Source: Rhodoferax sp. OV413 (GTDB lineage: Bacteria > Pseudomonadota > Gammaproteobacteria > Burkholderiales > Burkholderiaceae_C). From it: 64,000 bases of DNA. Below the pieces are notes generated by a model that had not been told where the DNA came from, did not search any database, and saw only the letters and a list, made by a program, of their open reading frames with translations. Location of the stretch: NCBI RefSeq assembly GCF_900104385.1, contig NZ_FNJA01000006.1, positions 186,001 through 250,000 on the forward strand, read 5' to 3'. Positions 43,950-49,785 of this stretch are shown here, in pieces (position 1 is the first letter of the stretch; every line of letters begins with the position of its first letter). The position numbers were made by a program, and so were the translations under genes.

Positions 43950-44987
43950 CTAGAAGCCCTGGGCCAGCAGGCGCGTGACTTCGGCCGCGGGCAGGGCCTG
44001 GCAGGCGCTGGCGTTCTGGCCCGACCAGAGTGGCGAGAAGTCGCCGCTGTGCTGGCTCTCGGCCCGCGCGCGCAGCGGGGCAATGGCTGCGGTGGCCAGT
44101 GGGAAGGCCGGGGCGTTGGTATTCATCGGCCCCAGCTCGCGCATCAGCCGATTGCTGATGCCGCGTGCCGGACGCCCGGTGAACAGCGAGGTCAGCGCCG
44201 TGTGCCGCGCCGCTGGCGACTGCAGCGCGGCCCGGTGCAGCGCGCTGGTCGTGGCCTCGTCGCACAGCAGGTAGGCGGTGCCCACCTGCACGCCGGCTGC
44301 GCCCAGCGCCATAGCGGCGGCCACCCCGTGGGCATCGGCAATGCCACCGGCGGCGATCACGGGTATGCGCACCCCGCGCACGATCTGCGGCAGCAGCGCA
44401 AACGCGCCCATTTGCCGCGTCAGGTCGTGCGACAGAAAGTGGCCACGGTGGCCGCCGGCCTCCAGGCCCTGGGCGATCACTGCGTCGACTCCGCGGGCTT
44501 CCAGCCACAGCGCTTCTTCCACTGTGGTGGCCGATGCCATCACCTTGGCGCCCCAGCTGCGCACCTGGGCCAGCAGCTCGGGCGCGGGCAGGCCGAAATG
44601 GAAGCTCACCACCGGCGGGCGAAACTCCTGCAGCAGATCCGCGGCCGCGGCGTTGAAAGCCGCGCGCCCCGGGCCGGCCACGATCTGCGCGGGGTCTAGG
44701 CCCAGCTCTTGGTAATAGGGCGCCAGGGTCGCGTGCCAGGCGGCTTCGCGTGCCGGGTCGGGCTGCGGCTGCGTATGGCAAAAGAAGTTCACGTTGTAGG
44801 GCTGGCTGGTCTGGGCGCGGATTTTCTCCAGCTCTTCGCGCAACACGTCCAGGCTCAGCATGGCCGCGGGCAGCGAGCCCAGGCCGCCCGCATTGCTGAC
44901 GGCCACGGCCATCGCACTGCCTTGTACGCCGGCCATCGGCGCCTGTATGAGGGGCAGCTGGGTACCCAGCAAAGTGGTGAGTGGCAT
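43950..44987 (-). CDS. Nitronate monooxygenase family protein
   Basis: 345 residues from the ATG at 44987 (ribosome site GGAG, 7 bases upstream). FMN-binding TIM barrel: '[29 protein letters not shown]', '[18 protein letters not shown]', '[37 protein letters not shown]'. The 'EAGGHRG' histidine is the catalytic base of class I nitronate monooxygenases, which detoxify propionate-3-nitronate. Divergent from the bufferin-type operon across 132 bases. Confidence 0.92.
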
Positions 44988-45119
44988 ATGCGCTCCAGAA
45001 AGAATTTTCAAAAACTATACCCCTGCCTGTAAGAAACCAGCGGCTGTGCGGACTACTGCTCAGCAAGGCCAACACCCTGCTGCATTCCAACCCACTTCAC
45101 TTATCTACCGGAGATTCTT

Positions 45120-45425
45120 ATGACCACTCGCGCTACCACCTCCTTCGCATCCACCGCCGTGCTGGCCCTGGCACTCGGCTCGGCATTGGCCATGGCCGCC
45201 GCCCCGGCTGCCGCTGCCGACGACAAAGAAAAATGCTTTGGCGTGGCCATGAAGGCCAAGAACGACTGCGCGGCCGGTGCCGGCACTACCTGCGCCGGCA
45301 CGGCGAAGATGGACTACCAGGCGAATGCCTGGAAGTACGTGCCCGCCGGTACCTGCGAAACCATGAAGTCCCCCACCTCGCCCACCGGCATGGGCCAGAA
45401 GATGGCCTTTACTGCCAAGATGTAA
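45120..45425 (+). CDS. bufA: BufA1-type bufferin precursor (DUF2282)
   Basis: 101 residues: a cleavable signal peptide (1-33, hydrophobic Ala/Leu stretch ending AAAA), then a small domain with exactly four cysteines at 39, 50, 58 and 79 in the DUF2282 pattern '[19 protein letters not shown]'. Members are ribosomally made precursors whose cysteines are oxidised to thiooxazole-type rings by the MNIO enzyme BufB, and are exported to bind copper or other metals. The ribosome site GGAG precedes the ATG. The stop overlaps the bufB start by one base (taATG), giving tight coupling. The assignment rests on pattern and operon context. Confidence 0.9.
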
Positions 45426-46300
45426 TGCACCTGGATGTAGCGACTGCCATGTCTTCCTCCACGTCGCTACCCCACAGGTCGGGCATCGGTCTGAAATCTG
45501 CCCACATCCGGCAGATTCTGGACACCGCGCCCGACCTGGGCTTCTTCGAAGTGCATGCCGAAAACTACCTGGTGGACGGCGGCCCTTTTCACCAGATGCT
45601 GACGCGCATCCGCGAACGCTACCCGTTGTCCATCCACGGCGTCGGCCTGTCCATCGGCGCCGAGGGCCCATTGGACACCGTGCACCTTGACGCGCTGGCC
45701 CGGCTGCTCGACCGCTACGCGCCCCAATCCTTTTCCGAGCACCTGGCCTGGTCCAGCCACGGCGGAGTGTTCCTCAACGACCTACTGCCCTTGCCCTATA
45801 CCGCCGCAACCTTGCAGCGCGTATGCGACCACATCGACCAGGTGCAGACCCGGCTGCAGCGCCGCATGCTGCTGGAGAACCCTGCCACCTATGTGCAGTT
45901 CAGCGCGTCCACGCTGAGCGAAACAACCTTCATCCGCGAGGTGCTGTGCCGCACCGGCTGCGGCCTGCTGCTGGATGTGAACAACGTATATGTCAGCAGC
46001 GTCAATCACCACTTTGACCCCTTGGCCTATCTGCGGGCGCTGCCGCTGGACCAGGTGGGCGAGATCCACCTGGCCGGCTTTGCCGAGCAGCAGGACGGCG
46101 CGGGCGACCGGCTGTTGATCGACAGCCATGGCGCCCCCGTGGCCCAGCCGGTGTGGGACTTGTATGCCGCCGCGCTGCGGCTGACCGGCCCGCTGCCTAC
46201 GCTGATCGAGCGCGACAACGAAGTCCCTGCGCTGCCGGTGCTGCTGGCCGAGGCGCAGGCCGCCGAGATGCATTTGCAAGCTTGCGAGGTGGCCGCATGA
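45425..46300 (+). CDS. bufB: DUF692 multinuclear iron oxidase (MNIO), BufB
   Basis: 291 residues from the ATG at 45425; a second ATG at 45449 is possible. TIM-barrel DUF692/MbnB fold with the metal-binding residues visible in order: His in 'SIHGVGLS', Glu/His in 'SEHLAWS', Glu in 'LLENPA', Asp/Asn/His in '[18 protein letters not shown]', His in 'EIHLAGF', Asp/His in 'DSHGAPV' and Glu in 'LIERDNEVP'. MNIO enzymes use two or three iron ions and oxygen to modify cysteines of peptide precursors, as in methanobactin synthesis. The substrate is almost certainly the preceding BufA product. Stop overlaps the next gene (ATGA). Confidence 0.93.
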
Positions 46301-47046
46301 ACCAGGCTGCTTTTGCCCAGGCCTTGTTTCAGCCCGCGCTGCCGTGCCCGCCCGGTCTGCACACCTGGAACGGCTCCGACCCGGCGGCACGCTTCAACGT
46401 CTACCGCAACAACGTAGTGGTGTCTCTGCGCGATGCGCTGGGGGCCACTTTCCCGGTGGTGCAGGCCCTGGTGGGCACTGATTTCTTTCAGGCCATGGCG
46501 CAGTTGTTCATCCAGGCGCACCCGCCGCGTTCACCCGTGATGGCCGGGTATGGCAGCGCGCTGCCGGACTTCATCGCCGGCTTTGCACCCGCCGCCAGCC
46601 TACCTTACCTGGCCGACGTGGCGCGGCTGGAGCTGGCGCGCGTGCGGGCCTACCACGCAGCCGATGCCGAGCCGCTGCCGCCCCAGTCTTTGCAAGCGGC
46701 TCTGGCCGACCCACAGCAGTTGCCGCAGTTGCGCTTGCGCTTGCATCCCAGCCTGCAGCTGCTGGCGTCGCCGCATGCCATTTGCGACCTATGGGCCGCG
46801 CACCAGGGCTTGCTGCAGATGGCCGAGATTGATCCCTACCGGGCGCAGACCGCGCTGGTGGTCCGCAACGGCTGGGAGGTGGAGGTGCTGGAGATTCCTG
46901 CCGCCAGCGCCGCCTGCATCCAGGCGCTGCAGCAAGGCGACAGCCTGCTCGCCGCCGCCAGCGTCGACCCGGCGCTGGACTTACCCCACACCCTGGCCCT
47001 GCTGATACGCCAGCAGCTCATCACCCATATTTCTACCGAGGCCTAA
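46297..47046 (+). CDS. bufC: DUF2063 precursor-recognition partner, BufC
   Basis: 249 residues. The N-terminal DUF2063 part is marked by '[33 protein letters not shown]' and '[18 protein letters not shown]'; a winged C-terminal part follows. MbnC/BufC proteins bind the precursor leader and present it to the MNIO enzyme. The gene overlaps bufB by 4 bases and precedes the DoxX gene by 4 bases. Confidence 0.92.
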
Positions 47047-47050
47047 CACC

Positions 47051-47533
47051 ATGGCATACCTTTCATCGCTGTTGCGGCAGTGCATTGCGCTGTGCGAACG
47101 CATCCCCCATTCGCTAATCGCTTTTCTGGCCCGCTTCTCGGTGGCGGCGGTGTTCTGGAAATCCGGCCAGACCAAGATCCAGGGCCTGGCGATTGACATC
47201 ATCGGCGGCGACTTCCAGCTCGGCTGGCCGCGGCTGTCGGACTCGGCCATAGACCTGTTCCGAGATGAATACCGGCTGCCCTTGGTCCCGCCCGAAATCG
47301 CCGCGCCCATGGCCGCCTGTGCCGAGCATGTGTTACCGCTGCTGTTGCTGCTTGGCCTGGCCACACGCTTCTCGGCCCTGGCCTTGCTGGGCATGACCTT
47401 GACCATCCAGCTCTTCGTCTACCCCGACGCTTATCCCACCCACGGCACCTGGGCGGCGCTGCTGCTGTACCTGGTGGCGCAGGGGCCGGGCAAGTTGTCG
47501 CTGGACCACGCTATCGCCCGGCGCAACGGTTGA
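47051..47533 (+). CDS. bufD: DoxX-family membrane protein of the bufferin operon
   Basis: 160 residues with four hydrophobic segments ('LIAFLARFSVAAVFWKSGQTKI', 'VLPLLLLLGLATRFSALALLGMTLTIQLFVYPD'). DoxX proteins are quinone-linked inner-membrane proteins commonly found as the last gene of bufferin-type operons; the role may be electron supply or redox protection, but it is not established. A palindromic repeat follows 10 bases after the stop. Confidence 0.88.
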   Translation: MAYLSSLLRQCIALCERIPHSLIAFLARFSVAAVFWKSGQTKIQGLAIDIIGGDFQLGWPRLSDSAIDLFRDEYRLPLVPPEIAAPMAACAEHVLPLLLLLGLATRFSALALLGMTLTIQLFVYPDAYPTHGTWAALLLYLVAQGPGKLSLDHAIARRNG

Positions 47534-47539
47534 CTCGGG

Positions 47540-47604
47540 TTGCTATGGTTTAAATAGCTGCTGGCGCAGGTAAATTCTGCGCTGGCAGCTTATTTTGTTT
47601 TAAA
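47540..47604. repeat. Dispersed palindromic element after the bufferin operon
   Basis: Arms agctgctggcgcag and ctgcgctggcagct (47556-47590) with flanks ttgctatggtttaaat / tattttgttttaaatt. A 13-14 bp hairpin, likely able to end or slow transcription of bufD. The rest of the gap to 47757 shows no further feature. Confidence 0.85.
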
Positions 47605-47757
47605 TTTCTGCGGCGCAGATGGTTTGCGGCAACATGTAATAAATGCGGTTCCACCATGGCCAACCGCACGCAGCGGAGGTGTTCTCGGCAAGAATGGATG
47701 CGCTTTACTTTTCGTAACACGCACGCGTTCCACCTGTTCCATTTGTTTGGAGAACCT

Positions 47758-49785
47758 ATGCTTGCAATGTTTACCTCGCTTCGCGGCAAGATCGTCGCCA
47801 TCACCGCCGCCGTGCTGCTGGTGGGGCTGGTCGGCCTGTCCATCAACAACGTCTGGACCGCGCGCCAGTACGCGCTGGAGGCGCTGGATAGCCAGACCCG
47901 ATCACTCGCTAGTTCGCATGCTGAGGGTGTGGCCGAATGGGTCGCGCAAAACCACAGGGTGGTGGCGTCCCTGGCAGCCGCAGTGGCCGAGGAGGACCCG
48001 CTGAAAGCCCTGGTGCAGGCCAAGGTGGCGGGCGGTGTGGACTCTGCCTACATCGGCTATGCCGACAAGAAGGCCATCTTCTCAGAGGTGCGCACCCGCG
48101 CCCCGGACTACGACCCCACGGCGCGACCCTGGTACAAAAAAGCCGCTGCGGCCGACGGCCCGGTGGTCACCGACCCCTATATCGGCGCGGCGACCAAGAA
48201 GTTGTTGATCACCTTCGCCGCAGCCACAAAGGAGGGCGGCCAGGTCAAGGCCGTGACCGCCACCGACGTGCTGATGGACACCGTGTCGCGCAACGTGGCC
48301 TCCATCCGTCCCACGCCTGGCAGCTATGGCTTTATCGTGTCCAAGGCCGGCAAAATCGTGGTGCACGAAGATGCCAATTTGCTGCTCAAGCCCGTGGCTG
48401 ATATTGCGCCGGATCTGGGCCAAGGCAGCTTTGCCGACTTGAAAGGACTGACCGAGATCAAGATCAATGGCGAGTCCCGCCTGGTCTATGGAGCACCCAT
48501 CACCGGCACCGACTGGTCGCTGGTGGTGGCCCTGCAACGCGACGAGGCCACGGCCGGCATCCGCGCCATGGTCTGGTCCTCGGTGATCGGTGCCCTGGTG
48601 GTGGCGGTGGCCGTGCTGTCCATCATCGCGGCGGTACTCAGCAAAACCCTGCGCCGCCTGACCGTCCTGCGCGATGCCATGCAGGAAGTGGGCTCGGGCG
48701 ATGGCGACCTGACCCTGCGCGTGGCCACCAGTGGCAACGACGAGCTGGCCACCATTGCCTCCAGCTTCAACCAGTTCGTGGAGAAGATCCACAGCGTGAT
48801 GCTGCAGGTGCGCACCAGCGCCGACGGGGTGGCCATCGCCAGCGTGGAAATTTCGCAAGGCAATAACGATCTGAGTTCGCGCACCGAAAGCCAGGCCAGC
48901 GCGCTGGAGCAGACCTCGGCGTCGATGGAGCAGCTGGGTGCCACCGTCAAGCAGAACGCCGACAGCGCGCGCCAGGCGAACCAGCTGGCCCAGAGCGCAT
49001 CCAGCGTGGCGATACGCGGCGGCGAGGTGGTGGGCCAGGTGGTCGAGACCATGAAGGGCATCAACGACTCGTCGAAGAAGATATCCGACATCATCAGCGT
49101 GATCGATGGCATTGCGTTCCAGACGAATATCCTGGCGCTGAACGCGGCGGTCGAAGCTGCGCGGGCCGGCGAGCAAGGCCGCGGCTTCGCCGTGGTGGCC
49201 TCCGAGGTGCGTAGCCTGGCCGGCCGATCCGCCGAGGCAGCAAAGGAAATCAAGGCGCTGATCAACGCCAGTGTGGAACGCGTGGAGCAAGGCACCAGCC
49301 TGGTCGACCAGGCGGGCAGCACGATGACCGAGGTCGTGGGTTCGATCCAGCGCGTGACCCAGATCATGGGCGAGATCAGCGTGGCCAGCTCCGAGCAGAG
49401 CGCCGGCGTGTCCCAGGTCGGCGAGGCCGTGACCCACATGGACCAGGCGACGCAGCAGAACGCCGCGCTGGTGGAGGAAATGGCGGCCGCGGCCAGCAGC
49501 CTGAAGACCCAGGCCGGCGACCTGGTGAAGGTGGTTGGCGCCTTCAAGCTCGGCGCGCATACGGCCCAGCAGCCGCACGCCGCACCTGCACGCACCGTGG
49601 CGCCTAGGCACACGCCTGCGGTGGCTGCGCCCGCCCGGCCGGTTGCCCGTAGCGCGACGGCTGCACCAGCCCCGGCAGCCCGCAAGCCGCTGCCGGCCAA
49701 GCCCATCAAGCTCGCGGCACCCAAGTCCAGCGCCCCGGCGCCTAAGCCGGCCGCGGGGGCTGAGTCGGATTGGGAAAGCTTCTAA
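47758..49785 (+). CDS. Methyl-accepting chemotaxis protein with dCache domain and pentapeptide tail
   Basis: 675 residues from the ATG at 47758 (ribosome site ggag). Transmembrane helix about 10-30, a periplasmic double-Cache ligand domain about 40-270 ('[29 protein letters not shown]'), second helix about 280-300, HAMP, and the conserved signalling hairpin '[37 protein letters not shown]'. The C-terminus is a long Ala/Pro linker ending in DWESF, the type of pentapeptide that tethers CheR and CheB. dCache receptors often sense amino acids or organic acids. This one should work in the polar chemoreceptor array. Confidence 0.94.

Follow-up and report, generated by a model that had tools for sequence, protein, structure and literature searches.

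The window analysed here is a stretch of 64,000 nucleotides from Rhodoferax sp. OV413 (contig NZ_FNJA01000006.1, positions 186,001 to 250,000). Between 45120 and 47533 it holds four closely packed open reading frames on the plus strand, preceded by a promoter-like element and followed by a probable terminator:

45028..45056, plus strand: promoter-like element TGTAAGAA-N15-GACTAC, 63 bases from the bufA ATG, defined by conservation
45120..45425, plus strand: bufA, predicted bufferin precursor, DUF2282 family, 101 aa, cysteines 39/50/58/79; PF10048 85.9 bits against a cut-off of 22.4
45425..46300, plus strand: bufB, MNIO (formerly DUF692), predicted bufferin maturase; NF050167 386.5 against 310, PF05114 358.5 against 25
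46297..47046, plus strand: bufC, DUF2063 partner (PME type 1 by domain and predicted fold), 249 aa; PF09836 94.7 bits against a cut-off of 27.2
47051..47533, plus strand: doxX, DoxX-family protein, 160 aa; PF07681 57.2 bits against a cut-off of 23.6
47556..47590, plus strand: probable terminator directly 3' of doxX, a stem-loop of 15 pairs and then a T-rich tail, from a scan of 44900–47760

The genes are joined by a 1-base overlap (bufA/bufB), a 4-base overlap (bufB/bufC) and a 4-base gap (bufC/doxX), or −1, −4 and +4. GC at the third codon position is 0.81–0.85 in each of the four, and every product exceeds the Pfam gathering score of its family (DUF2282, MNIO, DUF2063 and DoxX). The frames, order, coordinates and junctions given in a preliminary description of this DNA stand unchanged, and the profile searches it had proposed with PF10048, PF05114 and PF09836 cleared the family thresholds by a wide margin. 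Translation of BufB may start at the ATG at 45425 or the ATG at 45449, since strong conservation begins at residue 15. Because the scan of 44900–47760 returned one terminator-like site where shuffled sequences gave 2.1, the terminator call is supported by position and stem length alone. An Rfam search of 44000–49000 at gathering scores found no known RNA element near the operon.

BufB passes NF050167, the curated bufferin-specific MNIO equivalog, and the gene content is that of the published Buf1 cluster core of precursor, MNIO, DUF2063 partner and DoxX (PMC12452194). Both results bear out the bufferin-type reading of the preliminary description, and the locus is almost certainly a canonical, intact Buf1-type bufferin operon. 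The accompanying remark that automated annotation usually labels such a system as hypothetical is out of date. NCBIfam release 20.0 gives the enzyme the name 'MNIO family bufferin maturase', so a hypothetical label is no longer needed for BufB; BufA has no match among the NCBIfam models. We take the Caulobacter genes CC3254–CC3257 to be the operon called buf1. They encode DUF2282, DUF692, DUF2063 and DoxX proteins in order, as in the window (PMC3511200), and the same families recur in the gig genes of Cupriavidus metallidurans (DUF2282 Rmet_4685, DUF692 Rmet_4684, DUF2063 Rmet_4683 and a DoxX gene; PMC5413113).

The combination of an MNIO with a DUF2063 partner is shared with the EGKCG captophorins (fontiphorin, oxazolin/HvfABC and gonophorin), whose product contains 5-thiooxazole and binds copper (PMC12668002). 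Captophorin precursors carry EGKCG repeats, whereas BufA is a DUF2282 protein with four spaced cysteines and no EGKCG repeat in its sequence. An oxazolin (Hvf) type cluster was accordingly rejected, as the window proteins also fall below the cut-offs of the corresponding models (HvfB, 251.8 against 360; HvfC for BufC, 46.6 against 142; HvfX for DoxX, 44.4 against 80). BufB likewise lies below the cut-offs of the NCBIfam models for ApyH, MbnB and ChrH, and a methanobactin-type cluster was set aside on the MbnB model TIGR04159 (42.2 bits against 325). It is very improbable that BufB forms a methanobactin-type oxazolone-thioamide rather than a 5-thiooxazole: MbnB makes this group and oxazolin was first reported to carry it (PMC12452194), but BufB passes the bufferin model and falls far short of TIGR04159, and the oxazolin structure was later revised to 5-thiooxazole (PMC12668002).

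The cysteines of BufA lie at residues 39, 50, 58 and 79, in exact agreement with the positions first claimed, and all four are conserved without exception in the 80 BufA sequences compared. Six of the 80 have additional cysteines (four sequences with five, two with seven), partly an artefact of start positions set too far upstream, for example in L099. By eye, the N-terminus of BufA is Sec-type signal-like, residues 4–33 combining a hydrophobic stretch with a basic residue and alanine-rich sequence. In BufB, residues H71, H106, E151, D184, N186, H215, D233, H235 and E262 are identical in 81 of 81 sequences, and some of these histidine and acidic positions are presumably iron ligands, as in the MbnB and TglH structures. 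Among solved structures BufB is similar to 3bww (1.6e-38) and 8hci_D (9.8e-17), and also to MbnB chains.

For BufC, AlphaFold2 with an alignment of 18 sequences gave a best model of five at pLDDT 91.1, the others ranging from 76.2 to 89.2. When the BufC model was compared with the PDB by Foldseek, E <= 0.001 was reached solely by 8hci_A and 8hi7_A (TglHI) and 3dee (NGO1945), at 12–18% identity and TM-scores of 0.54–0.68 over 227–238 columns. A sequence profile of the 18 BufC proteins matched no PDB chain at E <= 0.001. The architecture is an N-terminal helical domain followed by a C-terminal mixed alpha/beta part where an RRE-type domain belongs. TglI and NGO1945 are MNIO partner proteins, and NGO1945 combines a DUF2063 domain with one of RRE type (PMC12452194); BufC is predicted to share the fold of such partners. 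As PME type 1 comprises a DUF2063 domain plus an RRE-type domain, most often in 250–260 aa, BufC classes with it, the RRE part being assigned from the predicted fold match alone.

By analogy with characterised homologues, BufA would be synthesised with a Sec-type signal sequence and presented by its partner BufC to the iron enzyme BufB. Together BufB and BufC would oxidise the central Cys50 and Cys58 to 5-thiooxazoles, with 4 H lost at each, while Cys39 and Cys79 would form a disulphide. In Buf1 the central cysteines are the modification targets and the first and last form the disulphide (PMC12452194), and installation of 5-thiooxazole with the loss of 4 H per cysteine by MNIO-DUF2063 clusters is shown for three related clusters (PMC12668002). 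The modified peptide would then be exported to the periplasm and bind excess copper, and DoxX may assist, perhaps by a redox role. Caulobacter Buf1 is described as carrying cysteine-derived thiooxazoles, sequestering copper in the periplasm and supporting better growth in copper excess (PMC12452194). Such homologues make it very probable that the product of the operon in the window is an exported peptide, chemically modified, that takes up excess copper.

The system might instead serve mainly against other thiophilic stress, such as gold, cadmium, chromate or oxidised thiols. The gold-induced gig operon of Cupriavidus is itself a bufferin cluster (PMC12452194, PMC11022561), a homologue in Legionella is responsive to both gold and copper (PMC5413113), and sigma-F targets in Caulobacter respond to chromate and cadmium (PMC3511200). 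We nevertheless regard this alternative as unlikely given that it is copper which Caulobacter Buf1 chelates and in whose excess it improves growth (PMC12452194), and that Caulobacter deletion mutants of sigF, CC2906 and CC3255 are reported to show no increased dichromate or cadmium sensitivity (PMC3511200).

The genome of the window has a single DUF2282 match and a single MNIO match, both within the operon, which rules out multiple bufferin copies. A DUF2282 gene is found in six of eight genomes of the genus, this one counted; across the family, 117 of 200 sampled genomes have one (105 of the 179 more complete ones). The operon is a clean, single-copy case of a bufferin system, from a betaproteobacterium whose family commonly has DUF2282 genes. 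In the five genus relatives with a DUF2282 gene all four genes are adjacent and in the same order, at 62–91% identity per gene over the matched stretch, and because this order recurs in five other genomes the four-gene set is not a chance assembly. The window has a nitronate monooxygenase gene (PF03060; 43950–45011, minus strand) divergent from bufA, and such a gene adjoins bufA in four of the five relatives, with a glycosidase gene beyond it in two. A chemotaxis receptor gene lies 3' of doxX in two of the five. In L084 the 4.3 kb upstream contain no monooxygenase match, and in L086 the 4.5 kb downstream contain no match to the receptor; contig ends truncate the neighbourhoods in L085 and L088. 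Flanking genes thus recur in the relatives, and most members of the genus have the operon at one shared chromosomal position.

The gene set also holds together in the named loci found through BufB, which represent the top 80 among 520 confirmed relatives, with BufA in 79, BufC in 79 and DoxX in 76. Four of the six misses fall at a contig end (BufA in L144, BufC and DoxX in L123, DoxX in L092), and two, both of DoxX, lie away from contig ends (L149 and L158). Two of the loci, L090 (titled Rhodoferax) and L091, have gene identities matching those of G002 and G003 among the genus genomes, so neither locus counts as independent.

Individual loci show variations of their own. In L022, from a member of the family, the bufB match comes in two pieces meeting at 2303 (about 1890–2626), and this copy may be broken or contain a sequencing error. 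In L035 some 730 bases (1638–2371) separate the bufA match from a 36% identical bufB match, leaving space for an extra gene. Extra genes inside buf1 operons are known, but those described lie between the MNIO and its partner (PMC12452194). Relatives of BufB at 66–67% identity are encoded on two conjugative-typed plasmids, pYD-K10_1 of Klebsiella aerogenes (L192) and pHN32wt of E. coli (L193), with the gene order DUF2282-DUF692-DNA-binding domain-DoxX, as in the window. BufB matches occur in 352 plasmid records, 73 of them Escherichia.

As a bufferin operon the locus is of an already known kind, and the conserved, switch-like promoter is the sole point that is slightly new, although we do not claim it to be unpublished. 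The element, TGTAAGAA and GACTAC with a gap of 15 or 16, is exact in all six genus copies of the bufA upstream region, and the 5.7 Mb genome contains a single exact occurrence. Its presence also bears on whether the copy is functional. Nothing was found that favours a decayed or silent operon, though a single copy without an adjoining sigma gene is compatible with one. Four open frames, intact motifs, high third-position GC and a promoter element kept in the genus speak against it, and we find decay or silence scarcely credible.

Of the 79 named loci with bufA, 22 carry the element with at most two mismatches in the 250-base region upstream of the gene (7 exact, 10 with one and 5 with two). 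This search covered 19,750 nt; for comparison, 1,616,886 nt from other parts of these loci, counting both strands, contained four such sites. Because L090 and L091 are among the genus copies that defined the motif, the count independent of its definition is 20 of 77, and related loci among the 79 are not independent of one another. The motif within two mismatches is missing in 57 of the 79 loci with bufA, including every locus titled Pseudomonas. Extending the reach to 400 bases and the gap to 14–17 adds two further loci with a three-mismatch site and leaves 55 of 79 without one. The halves of the element appear to resemble ECF promoter −35 and −10 boxes, and it is probably recognised by an ECF sigma factor. 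A sigma-70-type promoter scan of 44900–47760 found none, but with only 0.5 in shuffled sequence this negative carries little weight.

Other searches with the pattern were unproductive. With the gap set to 16, a scan of the window found three sites where 0.75 were expected, none of them the bufA site, whose gap is 15. TGTAAG-N17-19-CGACTA was found in only one of eight genus genomes because its gap is one too long for most copies, and hits of its backward control outnumbered its own. TGTAAG-N16-20-GACTA found the bufA site alone in the window's own genome, with six hits for the backward control. Since a two-mismatch scan of this genome gave 20 sites against 25 in the backward control, own-genome sites besides the exact one are meaningless.

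The operon in Caulobacter is under sigma-F with the negative regulator CC3252/NrsF (PMC3511200), whereas the window's genome has no match to NrsF (PF06532), which was detected in a control Caulobacter genome. Control by sigma-F/NrsF was ruled out on this ground, and the operon in the window differs from that of Caulobacter in both its promoter and its candidate sigma factor. A parallel in regulation is gig, for which the ECF sigma factor RpoQ and anti-sigma factor RsqA are the proposed regulators (PMC11022561), as an ECF sigma and anti-sigma factor are proposed for the window operon. The account in PMC11022561 presents control of gig by RpoQ as not demonstrated at that date. The sigma gene is adjacent to gig in C. 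metallidurans, whereas the candidate in the window's genome is unlinked to buf.

This candidate emerged from 34 sigma region 4 matches in the genome, some of them not sigma factors, 30 of which were compared with 86 buf loci. Homologues of one sigma gene, at C22:168177-168737, lie inside the buf locus of nine non-Pseudomonas loci (L093, L094, L099, L103, L105, L133, L140, L165 and L167; nearest homologue 37–47% identical), and in each the reading frame just 3' of the linked sigma gene has a zinc-finger-like HxxxCxxC motif. Eight of the nine carry the promoter motif within two mismatches, the exception being L140. Among loci that lack the motif, L163 (Pseudomonas) has a 31% homologue of the candidate, and L138 and L153 have a different ECF type whose nearest relative is the own-genome gene of L057. 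L099 has a second copy of the motif, with two mismatches, on the strand of the sigma gene and 288 bases ahead of the gene's matched start. A small ORF overlapping the candidate gene has a sub-threshold zf-HC2 match (19.5 against 22.2 bits).

Within the genus, each of the five near-complete genomes with buf also has the candidate sigma gene, and G001, the sole near-complete genome lacking buf, lacks the sigma gene too. Two genomes are incomplete: G005 shows neither buf nor the sigma gene, and G007 shows buf with no sigma match. Ten further genomes were searched for the candidate. Those of L093, L099, L103 and L165, where a sigma gene lies in the buf locus, have no match above 48% identity, the best one possibly being the linked gene, and those of L097, L090 and L091 have a match at 73–91%. 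The genome of L119 has matches of both kinds, that of L101 one at 48%, and that of L113 (Pseudomonas, no motif) only one of 31%. All the sigma factors tested pass TIGR02943, but the candidate passes PRK12520 and the four buf-linked ones PRK12544, so by this NCBIfam measure they are not orthologues. As the candidate belongs to a different subfamily from the linked factors tested, the regulatory link is put forward as a hypothesis, supported by co-occurrence in few independent cases. No copy of the motif precedes the candidate gene, and none within two mismatches occurs in the sigma loci of the genus relatives (L171–L175). Autoregulation of the candidate gene was rejected, the sole site within three mismatches in L066 lying inside coding sequence.

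With much less certainty than for the homologue-based steps above, transcription of the operon may be directed by an ECF sigma factor of the TIGR02943 family that is itself controlled by a zinc-finger-like anti-sigma factor, possibly the pair at C22:168177. A broader model, to which we would give slightly less than an even chance, is that in many Betaproteobacteria the bufferin operon is under a TIGR02943-family ECF sigma factor and a small zinc-finger-like anti-sigma factor, rather than sigma-F/NrsF, acting through TGTAAGRA-N15/16-CGACTAY. In the genus an unlinked PRK12520-type sigma factor would have taken over this promoter from a linked PRK12544-type one, perhaps with bufABC-doxX as the sole or principal target of the unlinked factor. 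The conserved promoter and co-occurring sigma factor provide a directly testable idea of how a bufferin operon is switched outside Caulobacter. L133 and L167 each hold two different homologues of the candidate sigma factor, each followed by an HxxxCxxC frame, within the same ~10 kb as buf.
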